From contig CALYLX010000034.1 in assembly GCA_944990035.1 (NCBI GenBank), positions 1 through 64,000 of the forward strand: DNA of 64,000 nucleotides. Reading direction: 5' to 3'. Below the pieces are notes generated by a model. It was given only the letters and a program-made list of their open reading frames with translations, was not told the DNA's origin and made no database searches. The DNA is from Clitopilus passeckerianus (Eukaryota > Basidiomycota > Agaricomycetes > Agaricales > Entolomataceae). Shown piece by piece: positions 6,630 through 60,415 of the stretch (positions within the stretch are counted from its first letter, which is position 1; each line of letters starts with the position of its first letter). A program made the position numbers and the translations under genes.

Positions 6630-8825
6630 GGCGGCTCTAACCACCACTCGAGCAAGGTTTGTCACCTTTTTATCGGCTTTCTCGAACTGTAATTCAGGTC
6701 GTTTAGAGGCTCAGGGACTTCTGGACCCTTTGGCTCAATCCTATTTTGCAACATTACCTGTCCCATCATAGTACAATATTGCAGGGAAATAACAATGCAT
6801 GCAGGCCTGATGTCGGGAGATGTAAAGAGCGACGATTGGGCTAGTTGACCTAATTATGAAGTCATTTTATTAAGGCCAGTGATTTGGACTACTTAACTCG
6901 TACGAATAGAAGGCGGCACTCAGATTTCAATGAGAGTGTAGGGCATCCTCAATACGACAGTTGCCACCATCTCAGGCAGAACGGGATGTAATTTTCTTGT
7001 CAAAAACGTCTATTCAGGCAACAGCCAACGTCCGCCAAGGGGTGATGTACGCGAATCTGGTTTCTGCGAGTAATAGGTCAAGATACAGTAAAGAAAGCTG
7101 CCGAAGTCTAGCCATTCAACTCCGGATGAAAGTGCTGCGGGTTCTAGCACAGGATATAACCGCGTCTCTCGCAGATGGAACTTAGAAAAATCGAGGTTGT
7201 CGGCCTCGTGTTGGGAAAGTGAATTCGGACGGGTTTTCGGGGTCCTTGCCTCATGGCCGCCTCATCATTCCCAAAATGGGCAGAGGAAGGGCGCTCTGTG
7301 ATCGAATCAGCGTACGGACCCACGCCCGCCGCATGTTGTCAAGTTAGTTCTGTGGAGAAAGGTATTGTTCCATTTGGCAATGCGGGGGTATATTGGCGTC
7401 TTTCTACTGAAGAGTTGCAAACATCTGGTGGCCTGATTGCCCAACGATTTCCCTTAAGAACCCGATGACATATGGTTATAAACCTTGTAAATTATAGGAA
7501 GATTGGATACGTAGAGAGGAGTGAGGGAACTAATCAAGGTTGAAGCTGACAGAAATTGGTGGCGTAGACTGGTCACATCACAGGTGCACTGATCCTCGTT
7601 TTCTCCCCATCCAGATGACCAATGTAGTCGCACTGGCGCAGGATAAACATGCATTCATCGCATGCCCTCAGTCTTGTACCTACGAGGAATAAAGTACTGG
7701 GCAAGGCCTTTCCGAATATCCCAGCCGTAGCGTTCACAGTATATGGGAGTGTTGATTGGATATAACCGGTCTTACGTATTAATGACATTGGATGGTACGT
7801 GAATATTCTGTATTTCATTTCTGCGTCTACCATCGTGGTTTGGTGAACCGGGTATTGTGAAGACGTACCGGCAACGAAGGTACACAAAAACGGCATGCGA
7901 GTTCCGCCTCGCACCTGCCATATGGCTCAAGAGCCTATTACATCAATTGTCTACTAGGTCTGATGCATCCGTCGTCGTTCGTCGTGATATACTTTGCTCG
8001 GATCTCCTGAGTTGCCTCGAAGTCAACTGAGCATAATAGGAAGGTCAAGGATGGGAAACTATTCGGACAAAGCTGGCTCAACGGAACCAATGAGGGGCAC
8101 TAACTTGCGATCGAGACGCAATCAACTTTAGATGCTCCCTCAAACTCATGGCCGCCATTTGTGGATGTTATCTCATACGACTAGCGATCTTTTCTTGGTG
8201 ATAACTGTATAGTACCTCGAGCAGGGGTGTAGCCATAGTGGCCTTAGCAAGAACGTTCGCACTCCTGCCTCATGTCGGCCCGATCTATCCCGGAAATATG
8301 TGTCCTTTTCTCACGTTCTCTTCTCTCGCATCCTCCACGCACGTCTCTTATATTGTGTACGTATGCTTCGACCCATGACATCACGAATATAACAGGAGGG
8401 TTCCGATTACCATGAATCACCCACCTCTCGACCCATTTACAGGCTATGTCACTTCCAACTCTAATAGACAATTCGCGCCCTTGGTTGAGGGACATTGCAT
8501 GATACCGAGAAGAATGTAGCCAACACTTTCGCTTCAATCTCATATGACATCGCACGTTGATTCTTGGAGTCGGTTACTGCTATGGTGCAGATGGGAGGGT
8601 CTGCTTCCAATGATGGAATGAATGATCGGGAGTCACATGGTACGTCTCTCTTACCTTCGCGACGACAGCGATGCAGAGGTATCTCGCTTGATTCAGCTTC
8701 CTTGTGATAATTAGCCTTGGGGTCATCTTCTTGGATGTACTTAAACAACAGTGTTGAGGACGTTTGACTCCGATCTCCTTCTTTGATTCTGCAACGAGCA
8801 GAATCCCTCTCTTACCCACCCCACC
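6630..8825. other. long intergenic region, no gene recognised
   Basis: No reading frame with a recognisable domain was found on either strand, and no repeat was noticed. Short-exon genes of the kind seen elsewhere in this window could hide here, so absence of a gene is not firmly established. The last 60 bp before 8826 is a pyrimidine-rich leader (CAGAATCCCTCTCTTACCC) typical of a fungal 5' untranslated region. Confidence 0.4.
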
Positions 8826-10267
8826 ATGGGGAAGCTCAGTGCCCTTATTCCGACAGTTCTCCTTCTCGCAGCGCATGCTTCACCTGTGAAACGGTAGGAA
8901 TTATAGCAAAGAGTGGAAACCTTTATTGACTTCATATTAGAGCGACGGTTTGCAACGGCCACGCCGAATTGTGCTCACGGTCGTACTCGAATGTAACGTA
9001 CATCGGCGCCCATGACTCCTTTGCTTTTAGCTCCGATCCGTTTGCTCGTACGTGTATTCTCCCCCTCTTCTGGAGGTCAATTCACTTACAGATTGCTAGT
9101 CGCTCGGGATCAGGAAGTCGATATCCCTACTCAGCTTAGCCTCGGAGTTAGGCTCTTACAGGCTCAGTCGCATATGTACGTATAACCCGCCTCGGTTATT
9201 CTGAACGGGTACTCATATATTGCTTCAAGGAACGGTGCAGATCTGCATTTCTGTCACACCAGTACGTATGCCCTACTTCGTATCATCCACCGCCTGACTT
9301 TATATATGATTAGGCTGCGTGAGTGTATATTGGGCACGTAAATACTGCGCTTTAATCAAAGGCTCCAGATCCTGTTCGACGGAGGCAAGGTTTCCGACTA
9401 CTTGGCTAAGGTCAAGACGTTCCTCGATGCAAATCCCAACGAGGTCCTGACGCTCCTCTTTACCAATCCGGAAGGGGTTTCCTTGACCGACGTCTGGAAG
9501 CCTCTGTTCGACAGTGCTGGTGCGTAGTAGTCTCCGCATTCGCCTCGTCCTAGTTGACTGTATCTCAATAGGTATCACCCCTATGGCCTACGTACCTCCA
9601 TCCGTACCGCTCAAGAAATCCGACTGGCCAACCTTGGGGCAAATGATCGACAGTGGGAAACGAGTCGTGATATTCCTTGACGCAGGCGCAGATACTTCCA
9701 CGGTCAACTTCATTTTGCCCGAGTTCCAGATGGTGAGTCGCAAACCATGCATGTACGGCGAAGACTGATGATGTTCCAGATCTGGGAAACGCCTTTCAGT
9801 GTTACAGATCCGAGCTTCCCATGCAAGGTCGACCGAATTGACGGTCCACTCTCGACTACAGACCATATGTATATGATTAACCACTCACTCAACAAAGACC
9901 TTCTTGGGACAGGCATCATTGTCAGCGACCCGCTAGATGCACCAACTACGAACGGTGTCGCCTCGTAAGTGGCATTTGTCTTGACGGGACTGTAGTTGGT
10001 TTAGTGACACTCGATCAGGATCAAGGCCAATGTCAATGGTTGTGTCCCGTTGGGTGGCAATCGCAACCCTACCTTCCTTCTTCTCGATTTTGTCGACAAG
10101 GGGCAAGCGTTCACAGCCGCAAACCAGTTGAATGGTTTGGCGTAAGTTGGTATCCTCGACGTCTCACGCCGCTAGACCGGTAATAATACTTTGTATCCAG
10201 TAAGTTAGGGAGTAACGTCTCGATCAGCAGTCCCGGAGGTTTCGAACGGCGTAGTTGTCGTTTTTGA
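8826..10267 (+). CDS. secreted PLC-like phosphodiesterase
   Basis: Ten exons are predicted: 8826-8893, 8941-9047, 9100-9175, 9230-9261, 9314-9318, 9369-9519, 9572-9732, 9780-9964, 10019-10141 and 10201-10267. They encode about 324 residues. An N-terminal signal peptide (hydrophobic LIPTVLLLAAHA, then a KR site) leads into a PI-PLC-X/TIM-barrel type fold: the conserved YIGAHDSFAF with the catalytic-type His, LHFCHTSC, then VKTFLDANPNEVLTLLFTN and VIFLDAGADT. These match the fungal PLC-like phosphodiesterase family, which often lacks the calcium-binding set of classical PLC, so substrate is uncertain. The fifth exon has only 5 nt. Family members often end in a hydrophobic GPI-type tail; here the predicted frame stops early, while the adjacent frame encodes a hydrophobic tail, suggesting a one-base shift or an unrecognised splice. 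Confidence 0.82.
9314..9318 (+). other. 5-nt micro-exon of the PLC-like gene
   Basis: GCTGC lies between GATTAG and GTGAGT. With the last base of the previous exon (9261) it forms Ser-Cys, and the next exon (from 9369, after CTCCAG) continues ILFDGG. This restores the family-typical HTSC-x-LFDGG order; skipping it or using the nearer acceptor at 9361 breaks the frame. Confidence 0.75.
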
Positions 10268-36555: not shown

Positions 36556-39500
36556 TCAGCTTGGTCCATCTCTGCCACCTTTCCGTACACCGCCCCGCAG
36601 CTCGAATAACACCATAATCTCTTCTGAATCCGCATGATCCAAGGGTGTTAAACCTTCGTCATCTTCCTCGTTGAGGTTTGCTCCAAAGTCCAGGAGTGCA
36701 TTTATGACGTAAAGCTGTGCGAGGACGGGTGGACCCTTCATACAAGTCTCCGCTGCCCACGATATTGGTGTACGTCCTGAACCATCTCGGGAATTCGGGT
36801 CAGCACCTTTTTTCAATAGACGGATTACGCCATCCACACTCCCCATCTCCGCTTCCCTCGATAAAACGGTCCTGCCGTCGTCGGATCTCTTTGAGACATC
36901 CATGTCCCAATCGGAATCATAGACGTCAGACTGCTCGGAGTACCATTCATACCCTCTCCCCTTCCCGTCGATGATACTTGTTGATGCACCAAGAGTTTTC
37001 AACGCCTCTACGGTTCTTAGGCGTGCACCAAGGAGGGCATGAAACAAGGGAGGCCGGCCTTCGTTGTCCAAGGAGTTAATATCGACGCCATTTACCTGGA
37101 TCAACCTTTCCACAATCTTGACGCTTCCGCTTTCGGCAGCGTATGAGAGAGGCGTTCGTCCCCACTTGTCGCGTGAGTCTGCATTTACGGATCCACTTTC
37201 CAGCAATAAGTCGGCCATCTGACATGACGTATCATCGGACTTCCAACATTCAAGTGCTGCTATATATGACAGTGGGGTACGGGCGTCCATATCCGGATGG
37301 TCCGTTCGAACTTTTCCAGTGTTGAGTAAGAGTCGGACCATATTCGGGTTCCTGCAGTACGACAGGGGGGTGCAGCCAGTATCGTCGGGGACGTCAACGA
37401 GTTCAGGAGCAAGTTCTAACATTGCTGCTACGACTGAATCCATCTCGCCTTCAACGGCATAGGAGAGTAGTGTTCTGCCATCATCTCGGAAATTAGGGAT
37501 GAGGGGTTCCTTCTGCAGCAGTATGGAGGCGATCGGCTCGTTCCCCATGGTGATTGCGTACGTCAGAGGGGTTTGGTCTGGAATGACTTCCGCCGCATAG
37601 TCCAGGCGATTGTCAGCTACCAGAGCAGCGACCGCCGAAGTCCTCTTGTTGTATATTGCTAGCCAAAGTGCCGTGAAATTGTCCACGGGATGCTTCACAT
37701 TGAGGTTTATGTTATCCCTCATCAACAGTTCGCAAACGATTTCCTCACTTCGTCTTGAGGCGGCAAGCATCAACGGAGTAAATCCTCCTAAGACAGGCCG
37801 ATTGGCGTCTACATCGCAGCGACATAAAAGGAGCTTGACGACCTCCACATTCCCCTTGATGACAGCCAGTGACAGAGGAGTCAGGCCGGTTTGGGACTCC
37901 AGATCTGCATTGATTCTGGGGTTCGCGAGGAGCAGGTTGACGCAGTTCTTTGAATCGCACCAAATGGCGATTGAAAGTGGGGAAAGGCGCTGAGTACCGA
38001 GAGTCACATTGGGATCGGTGCCCGAACGAAGCAGGATTGTTAACAGGTGGGGAAGGTCCAGCGTCAACGCGACCCATATGGCATGGAAGTTATGGTGAAC
38101 TTTCCATGCTCCTATCCCGTTGCCGAACATATGATTAACGTCCGTACCATACGCAGTTAGCGTTGACTGTGTAAGAAGCTGGGAGACAGCGAGATATATT
38201 GGCTCTGCAACTGCCAAATCTTGGACAGAATGGAGGCCGGGAAATATCTCCTTTTCAGCCTTTTGGAGATGGTGATGGAAGTGCTCTTGTATATATCTAT
38301 AGAGCGGTCGGTGAAGGCAAACAACTAGCCCAAACCCCCAGCTTTCTAGGTGCAATGGTAGTTGTGGTGCCGGCCAAGAAAGGTAAATGGCGAACATCTT
38401 GACCAGCATGTAGTCAGCAGACGGGAATTCGGATTCTCTAATCCGCTCAAAGAAAGTCTGAGCCGTCATGTCTGTACGAAGAAGAACTTCTCAGGAAAGG
38501 ACAGACCGAAATGCACGCGAAACTCACGGATGAGGTGTACCCGATTCGTTTTCGAGTTGATGACAACCAGACCCGCGCATGCTGCAGTGATAATGTCGGC
38601 AGTGTAAAGATAATCCTCCCAATCGGAGCCTCGATCGGGACCAGTTGACAATGCATGGGTAATCTCTTCGACAGACAAGCTACGAAATGTCGTTGTGACG
38701 AGCATCAATGTGTTCAAGGCAAGATCCCGGCGGTGTTCGTCTTGTTCCTTGATCCTTCGTATGGTTTGTAGGTATGCTGGGTCAATCTCATTAGCCAGGC
38801 TATCCAGATTTCGTCGAATTTGGCCAATGTTCAATAGGCTTCCAATGGCATTCATATGCAGCTCTGCTAAAAGGAATCTGAACCGGATAACTATAACTAA
38901 GGGTACGGTGGTTCAAGAAACTGTGCGTACCGCTCCTTTGATGCTTCCATCACTTTAGCCACAACCAAATCGGAGATTCTTGCCGCAAATGGAACCTCCT
39001 TCTGAATGCGACCACGAATGTAGGATTCCATATCGGCCGAAGCGCTATGGATTGGAATGATCATTGCTCCAGCATTCAAAAAAATCGATTCCATTGACCC
39101 TATAGCACGCGATGTAACCATCAACTTCAGGTCTGAAATCGACAGGAGCGTCTGGAGGAGTACCCGGATAGCACTATCAGAGTAGTTGAGGAGGTACTCG
39201 TCAAGGGCATCCAGTATAACAAATGCCCCTCCAGATTGTCGAATTGCAGAGCTTAGCACGGCATGAAATTGTGTTCCGACAAGAGCCGACGCGCTCCTCG
39301 TAGACGAGTAGTATTCGTAAACGACCTGAAACGCCCCTGGATTTTCGCAAAGTTGCCTGAGGATAGATCCGAAGACATGGCATTCGTTCTGGTCTGCCTG
39401 GCGCTTGTAATTGAAGTATATAAAGCAGACAGGGAGTTGCTGCTGTCGCTGTAGGTGGTCCACAACCACAGAGCTTTCGAGGTTACTCAGAATAATGCGA

Positions 39501-40352
39501 AGGTGACGCGTCGAGGATGACATACGAGATAACGGTTTTTCCTACACCAGCTGTAACGACGTAAGTGAACGTCCTGACCTATGCCTCGGAAAAACTTACG
39601 AATGCCAGGGCACCAGATAATTCTTCTCTCTTTTTCTTCGACCCACACTTGAAGCTCAGAAGATTTCAGAAACCAGTCTCCCGTGTGGTTACACCGTTTT
39701 AGGAACGTTTCCTTCTGCATTGGGACGTAATCATAGCCGCAAAGCCACTCCTTGATCTTGCCCTTGTCGGCCGCTAAGTAGATAATCAGATTTCTGGACG
39801 ATCTTGAACAGTGGGTTAAACCTACCGGAGGTTATATTATCTATGAAAGCGTTACACTTTAGTCCCAGATATGAATTCCCAACGCGATTGACTCACAAGT
39901 GTACGAATCACCATGGACTTCAATGAAGCGGGAGTTGGAGTAGTCGAAGAAATGCTAGGGAAGTAGATGTCGCCTCAAAATTCCATTTACTGCATTCTAA
40001 AACTTACGCTTTCTGCCTTGTGGCAGGTACCTACGCTCCTTTCCTGTAAGTACGCTGGTGGAGAAGGGTGAGCTCTGCAGAGGGTGATTTCTTCGGTACT
40101 CTTACAAGATTTATACAGGTCTTCAAAGGAGCCCAGTTCCCAGCACTTCAAGAGCATAATACGGAGGTCATTATCTGAGGCAAGTAACTGGCGACATTTT
40201 CTCCAGTCGAGATACTCTTGATCAAGGTGGACATCCGGAGACCGTCGAATAACATCACTGAGTAAACAAGCCTCGAGTATTCGCTTGAACGATGGAGGGG
40301 TATTCGTATAGTCACTCCATGAGAATTCTTCAAATCTTCCGCCATCTGGCAT
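36556..40352 (-). CDS. NACHT-ankyrin (STAND/NLR-like) protein, copy 1
   Basis: A multi-exon gene for roughly 1,150-1,200 residues. The N-terminal helical region has FSWSDYTNTPPSFK and KCRQLLASDNDLR. A short exon encodes SRFIEVHGDSYT, then a 15-nt exon (39826-39840), then DYVPMQKETF-KR-TGDWFLKSSE leading to the P-loop. The P-loop CPGIPGVGKTVIS is assembled across two introns. The NACHT core has the Walker B FVILDALDEY and sensor LMVTSR, then a winged-helix-like linker. The C-terminal 640 residues (single exon, 36556-38469) hold about 12 ankyrin repeats with TPLSYA-type helices. Such NTPase-repeat proteins are fungal NLR-like receptors implicated in non-self recognition and programmed cell death. 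Start chosen at 40352 by comparison with copy 2. It appears intact. Confidence 0.82.
39826..39840 (-). other. 15-nt micro-exon of NACHT-ankyrin copy 1
   Basis: On the minus strand ATAATATAACCTCCG is flanked by TTTCATAG and GTAGGT. It encodes the Tyr-Asn-Ile-Thr-Ser junction in phase. The paralog at 48382-48396 has an exon of identical length and phase, supporting both. Confidence 0.7.
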
Positions 40353-44800: not shown

Positions 44801-47800
44801 CTAATCCGACCCCGCTTCCAGAATCGACTTCTGTGCTTTGGGGCGAGAACGCATCGCGCCATGCGCCTCAAGGAAGTCCACCATGACCCCGTTCTTGCAA
44901 TGATCAAGAGGTGTCAGCTCCCCACTGTCTCGGGCATTGATATCGGCCCCTGCCTCGAGTAGTCTAAGGGCGGTACTGGTATACAGCTCGCTAGACCACC
45001 ATTCCTGACTTTCCACGTCAGGATCACGGAATCCGGCGACATAATGGAATGCGGATCGGCCATTCCTGTCTTTGACACTGGGATTGGCGCCGTGCTCGAT
45101 TAGGACCTCGACAGTCCATTCATTCCCGTTCTTGGCAGCATTCATCAAGGGTGTTACACCATCTTTGTCGGGGGAGTCGATATCCTGAAGTTTATCCAAA
45201 GCTAACACCAGAGGCCCAAGCCAACCAACGTCGGTTGCATGCCACAGTGGTGTTCGACCTTGCCCATCGCAGTTATTCCAATCTGCTCCATGTTTCAGAA
45301 GCGATTCCACAATCCGGTCGTGCTTGGATCGAATGGCAGCACAGAGCGGTGTCATCTTATCTCTCCCTTGCTTCCCTTCTACGTCTGCCCCATGCTGCAG
45401 CAGCACCTCTATGCTCTCCGAGTGTCCCCACTGAATGGCAGCCAAAAGTGGTGTATATTCTTCGTGATCCTGACCATCGATCGCCGCACCCGCATCCAGA
45501 AGAGTCTTGATCAACCCAGCGGGAGTATACCATCTTTCGAGTGCATGGAATAAAGGGGTCCTGCCTCCATTATCTCTAATATCCAGGGGAGCACCGTTCT
45601 GGATAAGAAGGGATATTATGCACGCATATGTTGCCATAACTGCGTGAGAAAGGGGTGTTCTGCCCTCTATGTCTTTGGACGCTATGTTCACTGCGTTGGT
45701 TCGAAGAAGGGAGTTGACGGTATGCTCTGCCCCGCGTTCGGCAGCAAATGACAGAGGGGTACGGCCAGATTTCTCTGGCAGATCGGGGCTAGCACCCATG
45801 GCGATAAGGGCGTCAACGATTCGTTCTGAGTCCCACCCAGACCTCGACGCATAGATCAGTGGTGTGTACCCATCCGAATCTCTTGAATCTACGTCAATAC
45901 CGGGGATTTCTAGGAGCAGTTTGACTATCTCTAAATGGAGCCCATCTGCTGCGTAAGAGAGTGGGGTTCGGCCGTCGTTATCGGGGAGGTCCGCCTTGGA
46001 GGGAGCCGCAAGTATGATCTGACTAGCTGTACTAGTCATTCCGTTTCCGGCTGCCCATGAAAGCAGTGTTCGTCCGGATTTATCTCGAAAATCGGGATCG
46101 AGAGAGTCCCGAATGAGAAGGAGGTCGAGGATTGTCTCGTTGCCCTCAGCTATGGCTAAACCAAGAGGTGTCAAGCCTTCATCGTCAACACGAGTACATT
46201 CCACGCGGGGATCCTCGATGAGAATGGAGATAATCTCTCGTTGGCGATACCGGACAGCATAAAACAATGGAGTGCGACGGAGGTTATTGGAGGCGTTGAC
46301 ATTTACACCATCTCTTCCTAGCAAGACCTTCACGATGTTGACCTGGCCGTAAGAGACCGCCATATGAAGAGGGGTAAACCCGTTTTTATTACTGGAGTTA
46401 ACGTCTACCTTCTCGTTCTCCAACAGGATTTTGACAATGTCGAGATTCCCGTGGCGTGAGGCAATTGCCAAAGGCGAGTTTCCGTCAACGTCGGGAGCAT
46501 CTACCTCAATTGAGTCTAGACTCAAGAGATAACGAGTAGAGTCGATGGCCCCAACCCGAACGGCACAGGTGATGGGAGTGAATTGAGAGCAGTCTTCACG
46601 GACATCCGCACTACCACCCCTGTTAAGGATGTGTTTGAGAGTGATAGGAAGATTCATAGTGGCGGCAAAATGGGAATCACTCCATTGGTGGGACTGCCAA
46701 TCTTCGAGAGGAATGTGTCCGCTGCCGGCACACAAAGTAACCATTAATTGGACGCCTCGATCAAGATAGGGGCCTAGCAGCTGCGGAAGGTCATCCTGAC
46801 ACGGCTTAAGATGAGACTCAAAGTGCTCTTCCATGTATCGAATTAGAGGAAGGCGATCGATGGATGTGTAGGCTTTAGAAACCATTTTCTCTTGAAGGTC
46901 GAATATATCGTCGAGCGCCAAGTACCTGAAGCAGGCTTGTGTTATCACCAGATCAGCCTTCGGGAAGTATACTTCCCTGGTCCTCTCGAAAAATTCTTGT
47001 GTGGTGTGGTCTGTGTAAAGTGTGCTTAGCCAGGGCTATGGCATTGCGAGAAGTCACATACGAACGAATTGGACCAGACCTAACTGCTCATTGAAAACGA
47101 CCAGTCCAGCGCAGACAGAAGTAATAAGCTCCTCGGGGTAGAGGTATTCATGAACGGTCCGTCGTCCCGGAGTGGCAGCAAGGGCGTGTTGTAACTGAGC
47201 TAGGGTCAAATTCTTCCGTGTACAAGCCACCCAGGTTAGAATTTCATGAGCAAGTTGTCGATGGCGCTCCCCTTGCTCTGCAATCCTATATATCGCCTGC
47301 TGATAAACCTGGTCCACCTCTTCTGACAAAGATGCCAGTGTATCTCGAATCTCGCCGACTGTGAGTCGACTAGAGACGGAGTCCATATGCAACCTTGCCA
47401 CCAAAAAGCTGGAATTGTCAGCGTGGTAGCCTCCCAACGAGATTGAATTGACTTTACCGTTGTTTAGCAGATTCCTTTATGTGCGTGATAATTGTTTCTT
47501 CCATCCTCAATTGAAAGCTACGCGAGAGTTCGGTAGAGATTCGATGTCTCAGATATCTTTCTATGTCCTCGTCGGTAGTCTGTATCTCTTGACGGACGGT
47601 TTCTGAATCGCTGAAGATGCGTTTCATATGGCCAATTATCCGAGAGGTCACCATAAGCTTCAGGTTCGGAATACCCAGAAGAGAGTCCCGCAATGCTTCC
47701 ACTGCATCATCAGAGTACGGTTCTAGGTACTCGTCAAGTGCGTCGATGACTACATAGATCTGGTGGATCTCTTGAGTGACTATCGCGAAAATATTCATGA

Positions 47801-50669: not shown

Positions 50670-53352
50670 TCACCGTCCATAATGGAACTGGAACCCCCCA
50701 CTCCCACCCGGATGTCCTCCCTGCTGGAAGAACTGCGCAAACGGATGCCCGCCAGGGAACCCTCCCCCAGGCTGATAGAACCCACCCGGTCCACCCTGCT
50801 GCGCCATCGGATCGTTCGGGTCGTCTCCATTATCGAATCGTTGCCTAAGCTCAGGGTTGGAGAGGACTTCGTAGGCTTCGTTGACGGTGGCCATCTTGGC
50901 TTCGGAACCGCCTTTGTCGGGGTGGGCGGTTTTGGCTGCTTGACGGCTGGAGAGAGGGAGGGGTTGGTTAGTATGAGGTTCAGGATTGTAGAGAGGGAAG
51001 GAGGATGGGAGGAGAAAAAGGGATAAGGAGGAAATACGAAGGCGAAGAAGAAAGATAGGAAGAAAGAAAGTAAAGGCATGATAAGAATAGAGGCAAACGA
51101 CAGGAAGGATAAGAGGTGATGGAGTGGTGGAACGATGGGAATTGATACCACCCAAGGCCGTAACTTCAAGCCTATGAACGAGGAACCGTCTCTTGGATGA
51201 CAATAGGCGAGTGGAGATGAAAGATATAAGAGAAACGACGGAGACAGCCACGATATCCCGCCTGCCAACCATACGGATTCCCGAAAGGAATCTCAGAGGG
51301 TGGAGTAGCAACACAACGAAGAACAGTAGGCACCAACGGAAATCCGAATCCTCAAGCCGGAAGTAGAGAACGCAGAGAAGAAAAGGATACGATGAATCGA
51401 AGGGTAGGAGGAAGAAGGAACGACGACGCAAACATAGCAAATGGCAGCCGGGAACGCCGCCCCTTCCCGGTCTCAGAGAGTAGCAAGAGCTCAACCCTCA
51501 ACCCTCGGGAACCCTGGGACCAGCTTTCGTCGCATGAAGAGGATGAAACAGATCCACCACATGCTCGAACGTAGGCTGAGCCTTAGGCCCATGACTAGAC
51601 GAGGAGAACGAGAAAGATCCGAAAAAGGGATCAAACAATCAAGCGAAAGGAAGGAAGAGAGAAAGGAAAAGGACACGTCGGCGAAAACGAAGGAAAAGAA
51701 ACGTACAAAGCCTTCTTAATAGTCCTCTCATCCGCATCCCGGCTAACGCCCAACACCTTGTAGTAGTCCTTTGCCCTGCTCTGCTTGAGGAGCTTCTGGG
51801 CGCGGTTGAGGCGGGAGTGGATCTGTAACGAACGGAAGAGGGAGTCAGTAAGGTTCAGATAAGGGAGGAAAAGTGAGAAGAGATGATGAGGGAAGGACTC
51901 CGTGAGAGACCGCCCCAACGGAAAACGAGAAGAGATCCAGAGCCGAAAACCAAAATACCGAAACGCATACTCACATCCCTCCTACTCTGCCCACACCCCT
52001 CCCAAGCCTTCTGCAACAACCTCGCACCCTCCTCCCACTCCTCCTTCCCCAACGCCGCCTCACCCATCCCCACAAGTGCATCCACATCCCCCTGATCAAT
52101 CTTGGCCAATTCCTCACACCACCTCTCCATCTCCTTCCTCATCCCCGTCCCTTTACTCGGCTGATCCTGACTCCCAGGCGGCGGAGCCGCTAGATGCGTA
52201 TATGCGACACACAACGACCGAACGAGGGCTTGACGAAGTGGGGAGGTGAGGAATGGGTCGGGGAGAGGTAGCTCGGGGAGGGTTTTGGAGGATTGGAGTT
52301 GGGGTGGGAGGAGGTTCGTTCTGGAAGTATGTTCCTTCAACGCCTCGTCGAAGCGTCCTAGCAGATCTCCCTTTTTCCCGGCGGAAGTGGAGGGAGAGAC
52401 GAGTTTGATGATGCCGCGCCAGTCTTCTTTGGATTTCAGGTCCTCGAGTTGGATGAATTGCTTGTCAAAGGTTTTGTATAAGCGGCGGAGGGAGAGGCAG
52501 GGTTTTGAGTCTGGGTCGAAGTGGAGGCATTGTTTGAGTGTGGAGAGTGGTGTGGTGGAGGGTGAAGTGGGCGATTGGAGGAGGAAGTACGAGAGGCGGA
52601 AGATGGTGGTGTGGAGGGTCGTTGATGGTGGTAGAAGGTGTCCCAGTCGACTATATGATGACGTCGTCAGTGAGAGTAATTAGAATAGAAGAAAACACCA
52701 ACGTCAAATCCCCAACAGCACCCTCCACATCCCCACTCCCAATCTCACACTCGGCTCTAACACTCCTAATCTCAACGCTATGACTCGCAACTCTTAACGC
52801 CGCACTCGCACTCTCCACACACGCAGTCCACAACCCCGCACTTCTCTCCTTCCCCATCTTTCCCTCCATCCTCTCACCCAAACCCAGCTCCTCCTCCAAT
52901 TCACCAACCTCCCTCGCAGCCTTCCCATCCTTATTCGTCTTGAACGTATGTCCCTTCTTATACCCTTCCAGAGCGCCCCTAACCAACTCCCAATTCCCCT
53001 CCCTCAACCCCACCTTCGCACGCATGAGGTTGGCACCATCAAACGTCCCCCTCGTCAATTCCAGGACTTTATCAAAGTCCTCCAACGCCGAGTTATGCCG
53101 CTGCAGGGAGAAGTAGGCCGTAGCGCGTTTGTAGTACAGCACGTAGTCTGTAGGTGACGATTCGATGGCTTCGGTGTATAGCCGTGCCGCGTCTGCGAAT
53201 TGGCCCACAGTTAGAAGGGCGTTGGCGCGGTTTATGAGTGGTTGCAGGCCTGGTGGGTACAGACCACCACTACCACCTGCCCCTGGGTCGGCAATGGAGG
53301 TGCCAGCAAGAGCAATTGAGACGAGAAAAGCAGAGAGCGGTATCAGCCGCAT
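50670..53352 (-). CDS. ER-type TPR-DnaJ co-chaperone (DNAJC3/p58IPK-like)
   Basis: Four exons (53352-52703, 52650-51975, 51822-51707, 50946-50670) give 572 residues, all phases matching. A signal peptide (RLIPLSAFLVSIALAGTSIA) leads into tetratricopeptide repeats (INRANALLTVGQFADAARLY; LYYKRATAYFSLQRHNSALE) and a helical middle. The C-terminal J domain is RAKDYYKVLGVSRDADERTI, then after the last intron RQAAKTAHPDKGG with the HPD motif that stimulates Hsp70 ATPase, then a Gly/Gln/Phe-rich tail. This matches the p58IPK/DNAJC3 layout, a lumenal co-chaperone of BiP in ER protein folding. No ER-retention tetrapeptide is visible. The J domain is split by a 760-nt intron (50947-51706), far longer than others in the window. 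Confidence 0.88.
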
Positions 53353-54667: not shown

Positions 54668-57600
54668 ATGTCTGGAACCGAATACACTCCCTCTTCTAAC
54701 CACGAAATGGTAGGTACCTCGACGACTTCTGGTGCTTCCGTGCTGATATATCGGTTCAGTCTGGAGACGAAGAAGGTTCAACCTGGGTAGGTAGCCGAAA
54801 CTTGTCACCCATAACGACGCTCTCATCGACGTACACGATTAAAAGGAAACACAAGTGGGTGGTATGAAGGCATATTTGAACAGAATTTTGACCATGGAAC
54901 ATGGCTCCTTACATAGTTTGTAAGTAATCCTGGCCCACAGCAGCAACCAGAGCCTCCTAACGATCCGGTGTTTTACGTCAGAATGTGAGGAGTTGATTCG
55001 AGCTCTGGCTATACAAACGGTGCCAACGAGATTCGTGCTTTGGTTGCGGGCGATTTTCAAGTGGGCAAGTGATATATCGCCGCTGACAGTTGGAGCAACG
55101 TTCTGACGCTGATATGTCGTACGTTAAAAGCAAGTGAGTAATGCTCTGAAACGCACGGAGGATCATGCGAGGTTGATATATATACATAGAACGTAAGTCG
55201 GGGTCTCGATTGGGAAGATTGTTAATGGTATATGTGATGAAAAATCAATTAGGATGTACGTTCTCTGCCGTAATTGAAGAATAATATGCTGACCACGTCT
55301 GCCTGCTATCGCGTCTTCAGTTGGTAAGTGAATCTGTCGAAATGATGCGCAGGATTCCTGACCACGTCTGCCCGCTCTCGCGTCTTCAGCGAGTAAGTGA
55401 ATCTGTCGAAATTATGCACAGCACTTCTCACCACGTCTACCCACTCTCACGTCTTCAGGAAGTAAGTAAATCCGTCCAAATGATGCGCAGGATTCCTGAC
55501 CACGTCTGCCCGCTCTCGCGCCTTCAGCGAGTAAGTGAATCTGTCGAAATCATGCACAGCACTCCTGACCACGTCTACCCACTCTCATGTCTCCAGCGAG
55601 TAAGTGAATCTGTCGAAATTATGCACAGCACTTCTCACCACGTCTGCCCGCTCTCACGTCTTCAGGAAGTAAGTGAATCTGTCGAAATTGTGCACAGCAC
55701 TCCTGACCGCGTCTGCCCGGTCTCGCGTCTTCAGGAAGTAAGTGAATCTGTAGAAATTACGCACAGCACTCCTGACCATGTCTGCCCGCTCTCGCGTCTT
55801 CAGGAAGTAAATGAATCTGTCGAAATGATGCACAGCAATCCTGACCACCTCTGCCCGCTCTCGCGTCTTCAGCGAGTAAGTGAATCTGTCGAAATTATGC
55901 ACAGCACTCCTGACCATGTCTGCCCGGTCTCGCGTCTTCAGGAAGTAAGTGAATCTGTCGAAATTATGCACAGCACTTCTCACCACGTCTGCCCGGTCTC
56001 ACGTCTTCAGGAAGTAGGTGAATCTGTCGAAATTATGCACAGGATTCCTGACCACGTCTGCCCGGTCTCGCGTCTTCAGGAAGTAAGTAAATCTGTCGAA
56101 ATTATGCACAGGATTCCTGACCATGTCTGCCCGGTCTCGCGTCTTCAGGAAGTAAGTGAATCTGTCGAAATTATGCACAGCACTCCTGACCACCTCTGCC
56201 CGGTCTCGCGTCTTCAGCGAGTAAGTAAATCCGTCCAAATGATGCGCAGGACTCCTGACCACGTCTGCCCGGTCTCGCGCCTTCAGCGAGTAAGTGAATC
56301 TGTCGAAATGATGCACAGCAGTCCTGACCACGTTTGCCCACTCTCACGTCTTCAGCGAGTAAGTGAATCTGTCGAAATGATGCACAGCACTCCTGACCAC
56401 GTCTGCCCGCTCTCGCGTCTTCAGGAAGTAAGTGAATCTGTCGAAATGGTGCGCAGGATTCCTGACCACGTCTGCCCGCTCTCGCGTCTTCAGTTGGTAA
56501 GTAAATCTGTCGAAATGACGCACAGCACTCCTGACCGCGTCTGCCCGGTCTCGCGTCTTCAGGAAGTAAGTGAATCTGTCGAAATGATGCACAGCACTCC
56601 TGACCACGTCTGCCCGCTCTCGCGTCTTCAGTGGGTAAGTGAATCTGTCCAAATGATGCGCAGGATTCCTGACCACGTCTGCCGGGTCTCGCGCCTTCAG
56701 CGAGTAAGTGAATCTGTCGAAATTATGCACAGCACTCCTGACCGCGTTTGCCCGGTCTCGCGTCTTCAGGAAGTAAGTGAATCTGTCGAAATTATGCACA
56801 GAACTTCTGACCACGTCTGCCCGGTCTCGCGTCTTCAGTTGGTAAGTAAATCTGTCGAAATTATGCACAGGATTCCTGACCACGTCTGCCCGGTCTCGTG
56901 TCTTTAGTGGGTAAGTGAATCTGTCGAAATTATGCACAGCACTCCTGACCACGTCTGCCCGCTCTCGCGTCTTTAGTGGGTAAGTGAATCTGTCGAAATT
57001 ATGCACAGGATTCCTGACCACGTCTGCCCGGTCTCGCGTCTTCAGGAAGTAAGTGAATCTGTCGAAATTATGCACAGCACTCCTGACCATGTCTGCCCGG
57101 TCTCGCGTCTTCAGGAAGTAAGTGAATCTGTCGAAATTATACACAGCACTCCTGACCACCTCTGCCCGGTCTCGTGTCTTCAGGATGTAAGTGAATCTGT
57201 CGAAATTATGCACAGCACTCCTGACCACGTCTGCCCGGTCTCGTGTCTTTAGTGGGTAAGTGAACCTGTCGAAATTATGCACAGCACTTCTCACCACGTC
57301 TGCCCGGTCTCACGTCTTCAGGAAGTAGGTGAATCTGTCGAAATTATGCACAGCACTCCTGACCACCTCTGCCCGCTCTCGCGTCTTCAGCGAGTAAGTG
57401 AATCTGTCGAAATTATGCACAGCACTCCTGACCATGTCTGCCCGGTCTCGCGTCTTCAGGAAGTAAGTGAATCTGTCGAAATTATGCACAGCACTTCTCA
57501 CCACGTCTGCCCGGTCTCGCGTCTTCAGGAAGTAAGTGAATCTGTCGAAATGATGCACAGCACTTCTGACCACGTCTGCCCGCTCTCGCGTCTTCAGTGG

Positions 57601-58811
57601 GTAAGTGAATATGTCCAAATGATGCGCAGGATTCCTGACCACGTCTGCCGGGTCTCGCGCCTTCAGCGAGTAAGTGAATCTGTCGAAATTATGCACAGTA
57701 CTCCTGACCACCTCTGCCCGCTCTCGCGTCTTCAGGAAGTAAGTGAATCTGTCGAAATTATGCACAGCAATCCTGACCACGTCTGCCCGCACTCGCGTCT
57801 TCAGCGAGTAAGTGAATCTGTCGAAATTATGCACAGCACTTCCCACCACGTCTGCCCGGTCTCGCGTCTTCAGGAAGTAAGTGAACCTGTCGAAATTATG
57901 CACAGCATTCCTGACCACGTCTGCCCGGTCTCGCGCCTTCAGGAAGTAAGTGAATCTGTCGAAATGATGCACAGCACTCCTGACCACCTCTGCCCGCTCT
58001 TGCGTCTTCAGCGAGTAAGTGAATCTGTTGAAATTATGCACAGCACTCCTGACCACGTCTGCCCGGTCTCGCGTCTTCAGCGAGTAAGTAAATCCGTCCG
58101 AATGATGCGCAGGATTCCTGACCACGTCTGCCCGCTCTCGCGCCTTCAGCGAGTAAGTGAATCTGTCGAAATTATGCACAGCACTTCTCACCACGTCTGC
58201 CCGGTCTCGCGTCTTCAGTTGGTAAGTGAATCTGTCGAAATTGTGCACAGCACTCCTGACCACGTCTGCCCGCTCTCGTGTCTTCAGGAAGTCAGTGAAT
58301 CTGTTGAAATTATGCACAGCAATCCTGACCACCTCTGCCCGCTCTTGCGTCTTCAGCGAGTAAGTGAATCTGTCGAAATTATGCACAGCACTCCTGACCA
58401 CGTCTGCCCGGTCTCGCGTCTTCAGCGAGTAAGTAAATCCGTCCAAATGATGCGCAGGACTCCTGACCACGTCTGCACGCTCTCGCGCCTTCAGCGAGTA
58501 AGTGAATCTGTCGAAATTATGCACAGCACTCCTGACCACGTCTGCCCGCTCTCGCGTCTTCAGGAAGTAAGTGAATCTGTCGAAATTACGCACCGCACCC
58601 CTGACCATGTCTGCCCGCTATCACGTCTTCAGGAAGTAAGTGAATCTGTCGAAATCATGCACAGGATTCCTGACCACGTCCGCTCGCTCTCCCATTTTCA
58701 GTTCGTACGTAAATATGTCGCAAGTATGCACTCGAACTTCTCACTACGTCTGCCCTTCATCTTACTCAGAGAGTTGGTGCCTCACTAGTTCTGGTCCAAC
58801 GCTTCTGCTAA
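54668..58811 (+). CDS. micro-exon gene: about 56 single-codon exons, 59 introns
   Basis: Predicted exon 1 is 54668-54709 (MSGTEYTPSSNHEM) and exon 2 is 54760-54786 (SGDEEGSTW). Exon 3 is TGG or TGGGTG at 54856. Then come 3-nt exons TTT (54917), AAT (54982), TGG (55062, followed by a GC donor), CAA (55131), AAC (55190) and GAT (55253), followed by fifty 3-nt exons at 55321 + 69i (i = 0 to 49). The last exon, 58770-58811, encodes RVGASLVLVQRFC and stop. All introns are phase 0. The spliced reading frame is about 285 nt, 94 residues. The fifty array codons are only GAA (22), CGA (17), TGG (5), TTG (4), GAT (1) and TTC (1), so the core is Glu/Arg-rich, possibly a charged helix. No signal peptide. 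It lies between NLR-like and HET genes. Function unknown. Alternatively it is a non-coding or decaying intron-like minisatellite. Confidence 0.6.
55321..58704 (+). repeat. 69-bp tandem repeat: 66-nt intron plus one codon, 49 units
   Basis: Forty-nine units of exactly 69 bp with no indel (49 x 69 = 3,381 bp between the first donor at 55324 and the last at 58705). A typical unit starts GTAAGTGAATCTGTCGAAAT and has CTGACC about 28 nt before its end, closing with TCTCGCGTCTTCAG then GAA, CGA, TGG, TTG, GAT or TTC. Two unit families exist: GTGAATCTGTCGAAATTATG and a variant with GTAAATCCGTCCAAATGATG. Variant units recur in the same local order (for example around 56632-56770 and 57598-57736), showing higher-order duplication. 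Because 69 is a multiple of 3, long ORFs appear on both strands without needing to be coding. It is not a CRISPR array: there are no unique spacers. Confidence 0.97.
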
Positions 58812-58816
58812 TTCTG

Positions 58817-58825
58817 TATATTTAA
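58817..58825 (+). promoter_or_regulatory. TATA box of the HET gene
   Basis: TATATTTAA lies 79-87 bp upstream of the HET start codon and just after the stop of the micro-exon gene. It suggests that the HET gene has its own promoter. Confidence 0.5.
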
Positions 58826-58903
58826 GCTGCAAAGTACCCAAGGCACGTTCATCATCGCTCTCCCGTGCCTGGCTCATGTCGACGATGTTTTGTCACTCAA
58901 GTA

Positions 58904-60415
58904 ATGAACAATATCATCGACGAGTACATCTGCAACCAACTTCCGCTCTATCTCCTACACCTAAGAGACATGAAACTATTACGGAGGAGCGCTGTTAAGG
59001 GAATTCTACAGGCTGACATCGATATATTTATTGAAAGCACTCTCTCCATAGAGCCCAAGCTGTCATTAGAGGACATTGGCAGTCGGACTAATCTATGGAT
59101 TATAGCACGGACCGCTTACGCAATATTCTCCCATCGATGGCTTTCGACCGGCGAACTGACTTTTGACGACGTCAGGAAATTAGAGAAGCTTGATCCCGAA
59201 GCGTCCAAGCGACTGGAGAGAAATGGAGAGAAGGATATGGTACGGACCAGCGGAGAGATACTTGACGTATGGGGGAGCCGTGGTACAAATGGGCCTAAGG
59301 ACGAGGGCAAGGTGAAGGACTTTGCATTGCTTCAAGCAATGAAGGAGTTCTGCGGCAGGATGTCAAATAAACAATGTGACGGTTGTCCGGACCTTGTCAA
59401 ACTCGTTCAATTTTGCAATATCGCACGACGGCAAGGCTGCAACCTCGTCTGGTTCGATACCGGCTGCATCGACAAGAGCAGGAGTGCGGAATTGGAGGAG
59501 TCGATCCGATCGATGTTTAACTGGTATCATCGGTCCAAGGTTTGTATTGTGCACCTCGCCGACACCACGCGGCTGTCATCCCTGAAGCAGGACCCATGGT
59601 TTACCAGGGGCTGGACGCTTCAGGAACTCCTGGCCCCTGAACGAATCATATTTTTTGGTGCATCCTGGCTCCGCATAACCCCTCAGCGATCACAGTCCAA
59701 CGATAACGACAAAGTTGGTGACAATATTCTTGGAGTTCCATTCTGGGAAGAGATTTCAGACATCACTGGGATCCCCACCAGCCATCTCCTCGCCTTTTCG
59801 CCTGGCATCACCCATGCCAGAGATGCGCTCGTATGGGCATCGAAAAGGAGAACGACTCGCACTGAAGACATCGCGTACTGTCTCATCGGACTACTAAATA
59901 TCCCACTTTCGATTGCCTATGGGGAGGGTGATATGTCATTCTATCGATTGCAGGCGGAGATTCTGGAGCGCAGCCCTGACATAGGGTTATTCGCTTGGGT
60001 CGGACAACCATCCCCCGACAACAGCATGCTCGCAAGCGGTGTGAATTGCTTCTCCGATCTTGAGTTCAAGTACAGGATCGACGAATCTCAAGAGGACGAT
60101 TCCGAAGACCAACCCCACATGCTTACGAACCGAGGGTTGCGTATCTCCCTTCCCGTTTACGCTGCGCAGAGAGGAGGAAACGAGGGTTGGTTGCGAGCAG
60201 AAGAGCTTAGGTTGAATGTTAAGGCGTCAACAAATCTGACCCAGTACGAACGTCTCAGAATTGCCATTCTGAACGGTGTAACCAACGGGTCGGCTACCCT
60301 AGCTATTGCACTGGGCCGCAAGGAAGGTCGCTGGACAAGGATTCCAACCAATCACCATCTCAAATTACGCCTCCCCGACGAACTCAAAGAGCCGACGACT
60401 TTGTACATTAAGTAA
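58904..60415 (+). CDS. HET-domain (heterokaryon incompatibility type) protein
   Basis: A single-exon frame of 503 residues from ATG 58904 (MNNIIDEYICNQLPLYLLHL). The HET domain spans about residues 75-260 with its three blocks: YAIFSHRWLSTGELTF; CNLVWFDTGCIDKSRSAE followed by SIRSMFNWYHRSKVCIVHLA; and DPWFTRGWTLQELLAPERI. Downstream ASKRRTTRTEDIAYCLIGLL and AYGEGDMSFYRLQAEIL are typical of basidiomycete HET proteins. HET domains act as TIR-related cell-death effectors in fungal allorecognition; whether this one kills is unknown. The frame is open 13 codons further upstream but without ATG. A small intron (GTAAGT near 60451 to TAAATAG near 60499) may lie in its 3' untranslated region. Confidence 0.9.
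   Translation: MNNIIDEYICNQLPLYLLHLRDMKLLRRSAVKGILQADIDIFIESTLSIEPKLSLEDIGSRTNLWIIARTAYAIFSHRWLSTGELTFDDVRKLEKLDPEASKRLERNGEKDMVRTSGEILDVWGSRGTNGPKDEGKVKDFALLQAMKEFCGRMSNKQCDGCPDLVKLVQFCNIARRQGCNLVWFDTGCIDKSRSAELEESIRSMFNWYHRSKVCIVHLADTTRLSSLKQDPWFTRGWTLQELLAPERIIFFGASWLRITPQRSQSNDNDKVGDNILGVPFWEEISDITGIPTSHLLAFSPGITHARDALVWASKRRTTRTEDIAYCLIGLLNIPLSIAYGEGDMSFYRLQAEILERSPDIGLFAWVGQPSPDNSMLASGVNCFSDLEFKYRIDESQEDDSEDQPHMLTNRGLRISLPVYAAQRGGNEGWLRAEELRLNVKASTNLTQYERLRIAILNGVTNGSATLAIALGRKEGRWTRIPTNHHLKLRLPDELKEPTTLYIK

Follow-up and report, generated by a model that had tools for sequence, protein, structure and literature searches.

Organization of the locus

The window, meaning the whole stretch of 64,000 nucleotides analysed here, is contig C34 from 1 to 64000, within a 64.8-Mb genome of 160 contigs. 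Twenty-two copies of the telomere-type repeat CCTAAAC are found at 63–216, so that the window probably begins at a chromosome end. Three long frames on the minus strand (36556–38469, 38897–39523 and 44801–46948) resemble, by eye, ankyrin-repeat or NLR-like proteins. A DnaJC3-like TPR frame occupies 52654–53352 on the same strand; its best match reaches 65% over 79% of the query, and none of 98 records is near-identical.

The gene described in this study lies on the plus strand. Judging from its splice signals and reading frames, we consider it highly probable that splicing unites 57 single-codon exons and connects them, by way of a 16-nt exon, with a HET-domain frame. They would form one gene at 54668–60415, likely encoding a HET protein of 589 aa (the sum of the predicted exon lengths) with an N-terminal arm that is encoded codon by codon in separate exons. 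The predicted parts are as follows.

54668..54709, plus strand: predicted first coding exon, MSGTEYTPSSNHEM, starting at the outer ATG
54760..54786, plus strand: predicted 27-nt exon 2, SGDEEGSTW (parse)
54917..55323, plus strand: first seven single-codon exons with their introns, TTT, AAT, TGG, CAA, AAC, GAT, TTG, giving FNWQNDL
55390..58704, plus strand: 49 further single-codon exons (CGA, GAA, TTG, TGG, GAT, TTC), separated mostly by 66-nt introns
58770..58772, plus strand: last single-codon exon, AGA (R) (parse)
58773..58826, plus strand: predicted intron with a weak donor GTTGGT, acceptor TTTAAG and branch-point-like CTAAT at 58808-58812
58827..58842, plus strand: 16-nt exon (LQSTQ + G), the link between array and HET frame (parse)
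58843-58901, plus strand: GC-AG intron directly before the HET exon
58902..60415, plus strand: large last exon, HET-domain (PF06985) frame (profile match)

The gene model was built by a dynamic-programming parse that weighs donors and acceptors, gives a bonus for branch points and takes account of the reading frame. Its scoring rewards exons of 3 nt as well as the 16-nt exon and permits no stops, so that the parse alone is no proof of the model.

The chain of predicted single-codon exons

An AG-NNN-GT chain had been noted in a preliminary description of this DNA, and it is present at that site: the splice-model parse resolves it into 57 single-codon exons, from 54917-54919 to 58770-58772 on the plus strand, every one in phase 0. 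The chain had been placed at 54786–58770; 54786 is instead the end of the 27-nt exon, and the parsed single-codon exons begin at 54917. The estimate of about 56 such exons becomes 57, and the 49 introns of an identical 66 nt become fifty units with a 66-nt intron. TRF finds a 69-bp tandem array of 50.2 copies at 55289-58755. Six AG-NNN-G(T/C) steps from 54917 precede it, and the first six of the seven 5′ single-codon exons sit in this non-repetitive DNA, with a GC donor following TGG. The unique 5′ part alone gives a chain of 6, a length reached by 0 of 20000 dinucleotide shuffles (maximum 4), and the earlier statement that the flank outside the repeat follows the same rule is thus upheld. The introns of 55390..58704 have GTRAGT-like donors, CTGAC-like branch points and YAG ends. 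The last single-codon exon encodes R in 17 of 21 parsed arrays, the exceptions being loci L009, L011, C98 and C101. A TGG at 54856 was considered as a further micro-exon, rejected and counted as intron; its equivalent is TAG in L009 and L011.

Predicted connection to the HET domain

The parse prefers an inner ATG at 54707. The allele of the gene (L010, described below) has ACG at that place, and we therefore chose the outer ATG at 54668 as the start. The 27-nt second exon was also parsed in L010, L011, C155a, C155d, C106c and C106e. The donor after the last micro-exon is the weak GTTGGT in the window and L010, GTAGGT in L009 and GTGGGT in L011. A 16-nt exon was placed at the equivalent position in 19 of 21 array loci when the scoring gave it a bonus, and in 13 of 21 without the bonus, when two loci were left without any parse. 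The predicted spliced arm, FNWQNDLRERREEE..., would be in frame with HET, and the predicted window protein matches the HET profile PF06985 at 31.4 bits (cut-off 22.5).

The preliminary description had instead closed the array with a stop exon, as a self-contained small gene ending RVGASLVLVQRFC-stop. We found no support for such an ending: the TAA in question (58809-58811) is inside the branch-point-like CTAAT and is followed by the 16-nt exon and the GC-AG intron, through which the gene is predicted to run on into the HET frame and end at 60415. A separate small gene beside an independent HET gene would explain why the frame after 58770 is open up to the TAA in the window and L010, and why the L011 equivalent is also in frame to its TAA. 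It is nevertheless very improbable, given the position of the TAA and the exon and intron downstream of it, and the L009 counterpart of the proposed last exon is frameshifted. At the C155 and C106 loci, moreover, the HET match begins without an ATG, which suits an upstream splice; a start further downstream would also be possible there.

Arrays at other HET loci

When the array was used as a DNA query, two more arrays came up on C36 and one on C34, and each of them has a HET frame immediately downstream. The HET frame as a protein query yielded 26 matches, grouped into 24 loci; one fragment (C26) was left out, and the upstream DNA of the other 23, including the window, was examined. The splice-model parse placed an array at 21 of these 23 loci, that is, at 20 of the 22 relatives. 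The two without an array, C13 and C113, have HET sequences 37-38% identical to that of the window. Not counting the start codon, an array has between 11 and 95 single-codon exons, with the maximum in C155a. In 20 parsed loci, 941 of 1016 exons are 3 nt long, own-exon start codons included, under a parse that favours this length. C98 and C101 also contain exons of 6, 9 or 12 nt, one C98 exon is 15 nt, and their last exon before HET is 11 nt. We excluded C97b (L017) from the exon totals because the 5′ part of its model reads through a transposase-like insert, and retained it in the codon pair counts.

Three of these loci look irregular in other respects. In L017 (C97:348700-358600, minus strand), the array seems to be interrupted by the insert, presumably a Tc1/mariner-like remnant by its motif, and the HET match is split into two pieces. 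At L011 (C34:95500-101000), the other array locus on C34, the HET frame is broken and the array, with a chain of 10, is less regular, as if the locus were decaying. L013 (C157:552500-562400), an array and HET locus, has no clear counterpart among the C97 HET matches, a possible presence/absence difference.

The restriction to an exon length of 3 was also visible in simple pattern counts. In 20 of 24 stretches, chains of YAG-N(k)-GTRNG with k = 3 were 7 to 50 links long; with k = 0-2 or 4-15, no chain on either strand was longer than 3. Four stretches had no such k = 3 chain; two of them, L016 and L026, are not directly upstream of a HET locus, and L030 (C13) and L031 (C113) are. The unfiltered chain over 21 loci contains 804 codons of 60 kinds and a single stop (TAA, in C106d), against 48.5 stops expected from base composition, the units not being independent. 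The AG-NNN-GT chain is very likely a series of true single-codon exons. The earlier proposal of phase-0 exons of one codon between spliceosomal-type introns is thereby supported, and strengthened by the copies elsewhere in the genome.

Repetition does not account for the chain

The repetitiveness of the arrays varies widely. With donor and acceptor ends removed, the mean identity among intron cores (shuffled value in parentheses) was 0.46 (0.45) in C98, 0.48 (0.44) in C155d, 0.50 (0.47) in C157a, 0.69 (0.48) in C155a and 0.81 (0.50) in the window. TRF found no repeat in L021 (C155d) and, in L028 (C98), a single 29-bp repeat upstream of the parsed gene. The C98 region contains a strict chain of 18, where 1000 shuffles give at most 2. 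Since the C98 introns are no more alike than shuffled sequence, the chain is not a minisatellite artefact, as the preliminary description had argued from the window. Across eight arrays, the variation was 1.23-1.82 bits at exon positions, 0.31-0.91 in intron bodies, 0.11-0.42 in donors and 0.12-0.33 in the last three intron bases.

A minisatellite lying within one long intron, or an unspliced protein of 23-residue repeats, is accordingly an extremely improbable reading. The repeat does leave open frames, two on the plus strand (528 and 503 aa) and one on the minus strand (432 aa), and, of 60 window introns, 46 have a length divisible by 3 and no in-frame stop. However, TAG acceptors create TAG just before 56908, 56977 and 57253, the unspliced frame is broken by 67-nt introns in the allele L010 and by other lengths in L009, and frame-shifting 50-nt introns are common at the C155 and C106 loci. 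Arrays free of repeats carry the same chain. Unspliced ORFs on both strands were rejected.

Conservation of array codons

Seven locus pairs were compared codon by codon, and the three closest were chosen after counting. Between C157a and C97a, 3 of 50 aligned codons differ, all synonymously, and the introns differ by 10.0%. For C155d and C106c, 2 of 31 codons differ, both synonymously, with introns differing by 7.8%. C98 and C101 have one synonymous and one other difference in 55 codons (introns, 6.9%). The latter, GTT/GAG, is probably a parsing slip because C98 also has GAG there. In the three pairs pooled (136 codons), 6 of 7 differences are synonymous, where the expected share is 0.21 (P for at least 6 in 7, 5.6e-4). 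Of 272 sites at codon positions 1 and 2, one differs, whereas 571 of the 6867 sites in intron bodies do (P 4e-9). The third position, with 7 differences among 136 sites, is indistinguishable from the introns (P 0.21). In these three pairs the array codons thus appear nearly fixed while the introns change, as would be expected if they were translated.

The remaining pairs behave differently. Non-synonymous and synonymous differences number 10 and 6 in 64 codons of C157c/C97b, 4 and 2 in 12 of C155e/C106b, 8 and 3 in 17 of C155c/C106d, and 19 and 0 in 45 of the window and L010. Over all seven pairs, 274 aligned codons comprise 215 identical, 17 synonymous and 42 non-synonymous cases. The contrast of three conserved pairs with four that change freely suggests that the arrays differ in this respect, some being conserved and others subject to turnover. 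The coding signal comes from three pairs picked post hoc, and the window pair may reflect either fast useful change or relaxed constraint.

The window gene and its allele

Positions 8000-10000 of the window have one other match, on C36, with 90% identity and 10.7-12.7 kb from the C36 end. The downstream flank of the gene matches C36 next to L010 at 78%. In our interpretation, C34 and C36 represent two haplotypes and the window gene has its allele in L010; other contig pairs are likely to be haplotypes as well. The HET exons of the window and L010 are identical at 476 of 503 residues (95%) and open in both. Single-codon exons number 57 in the window array and 47 in that of L010, and 50 window units share no 4-residue run with the latter. 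The other haplotype thus bears a strongly different array.

Such divergence could mean that the single-codon exons are real in the family and the window copy is a drifting array of little function. Of its 57 residues, 74% are charged, chiefly E and R; 50 of its units have no 4-residue run in common with the allele; and the HET frame of the neighbouring paralogue L011 is broken. We regard this as unlikely, because the parsed steps of the window copy retain their splice signals and contain no stop, and the two HET exons are open and 95% identical.

The arm and the HET protein

The share of charged residues ranges from 22 to 74% among the arms, with the window at the upper end; the L009 arm is instead rich in proline and glycine. 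Twelve of 21 arrays begin with F-x-W spread over three separate exons (I-x-W in C106e), and nine lack this start. The C101 arm gave no relative in a protein database (32 candidates, none at E 10 or better), and the C155a arm hit one PDB chain at E 0.48. Four arms compared with Pfam matched no family over the cut-off (best E 0.0097). When three predicted proteins were scanned, two of them incomplete at the C-terminus, HET alone exceeded the cut-off, with no NACHT, ankyrin or WD domain. A model of the HET exon (mean pLDDT 87) had no PDB match at E 0.001 or better in a fold search, and a scan of viral contigs with the HET protein detected no relative. The closest named HET relative, 53%, is from Flammula alnicola (Agaricomycetes). 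Among 120 database relatives listed, 81 have no more than 2 residues in front of the HET exon and 17 have more than 20, and similar arms may therefore go unannotated elsewhere.

Comparison with known systems

Schistosome micro-exon genes contain many short exons with lengths in multiples of 3, mostly 6-36 nt, and encode secreted proteins. The present genes share the many short exons in multiples of 3 and differ in being dominated by 3-nt exons and in encoding a HET-domain protein.

The preliminary description knew of no gene made almost entirely of 3-nt exons. A precedent exists in Tuber melanosporum: in four papers (PMC9815663, PMC4986451, PMC3689799, PMC10197012; citing Iotti 2012), NACHT-ANK genes are described with dozens of 3-bp exons, and the codon-sized exons of these NLR-type genes as alternatively spliced; three of the four name the NACHT-ANK family together with tens, dozens or multiple 3-bp exons. 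This kind of gene is thus already known, and the present family is another variant. As far as those papers describe them, both are expanded fungal immune-type families with dozens of 3-bp exons (57 in the window, by sequence and conservation) and a proposed diversification of the recognition region. The Tuber genes, from an ascomycete, combine NACHT and ANK and diversify a C-terminal part, whereas ours have HET only, N-terminal arrays and an Agaricomycete as closest relative; neither NACHT nor ankyrin domains were found in the three scanned proteins, two of them C-terminally incomplete.

In Podospora, het-d and het-e have repeat units reshuffled within and between family members and an allele-specific variable part, according to PMC1805685. 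The present genes resemble these non-self recognition genes in both features. The unit there is a WD-repeat. In the present genes it comprises an intron and a single codon, and NACHT and WD40 repeats were not found in the predicted window protein, which has HET alone. Isolated 3-nt exons are spliced in animals in the examples seen in PMC8042270, in contrast to the chains of tens here. Our literature search, mostly of titles and abstract beginnings and with few subscription papers, found no HET genes or basidiomycetes with single-codon exon arrays, no N-terminal array and no codon-level conservation measured against intron change.

Proposed mechanism and role

Intron definition operates in short fungal introns. 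The introns of the array would most simply be removed stepwise from the 5′ side, each splice bringing the following GT donor directly after the codon just added. Every repeat unit consists of an intron and a single codon. Unequal exchange within introns would therefore insert, delete or replace entire amino acids with the frame intact, and the often charged arm could change fast. The HET domain is reported in PMC10197012 to be sufficient for inducing cell death and to be a remote relative of TIR; the same source assigns an allorecognition role to only a small fraction of HET genes. The arm may tune the HET domain or give it specificity, a recognition role that we propose by analogy with fungal non-self recognition genes, since few HET genes reportedly act in allorecognition.

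We tentatively suggest, as a plausible reading short of a probable one, that codon-by-codon exons in mushroom HET genes are a frame-proof diversity generator: near-identical introns would recombine, single amino acids would be exchanged between alleles or paralogues, and new non-self specificities would arise in a cell-death trigger. The array might alternatively be an alternative-splicing device by which one gene yields many N-terminal arms. As the window single-codon exons are all 3 nt and in phase 0 in the parse, any subset could be skipped in frame, and the codon-sized exons of the Tuber NACHT-ANK genes are reportedly spliced alternatively. This possibility is doubtful, because C157a/C97a, C155d/C106c and C98/C101 keep nearly every codon, which suits routine inclusion.

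If the single-codon exons are true, as many as 95 three-letter exons within one gene would confront both the spliceosome and gene annotation with an extreme case. Such genes would also be a route for protein evolution residue by residue, without frameshifts, in a class of genes linked to fungal non-self recognition.
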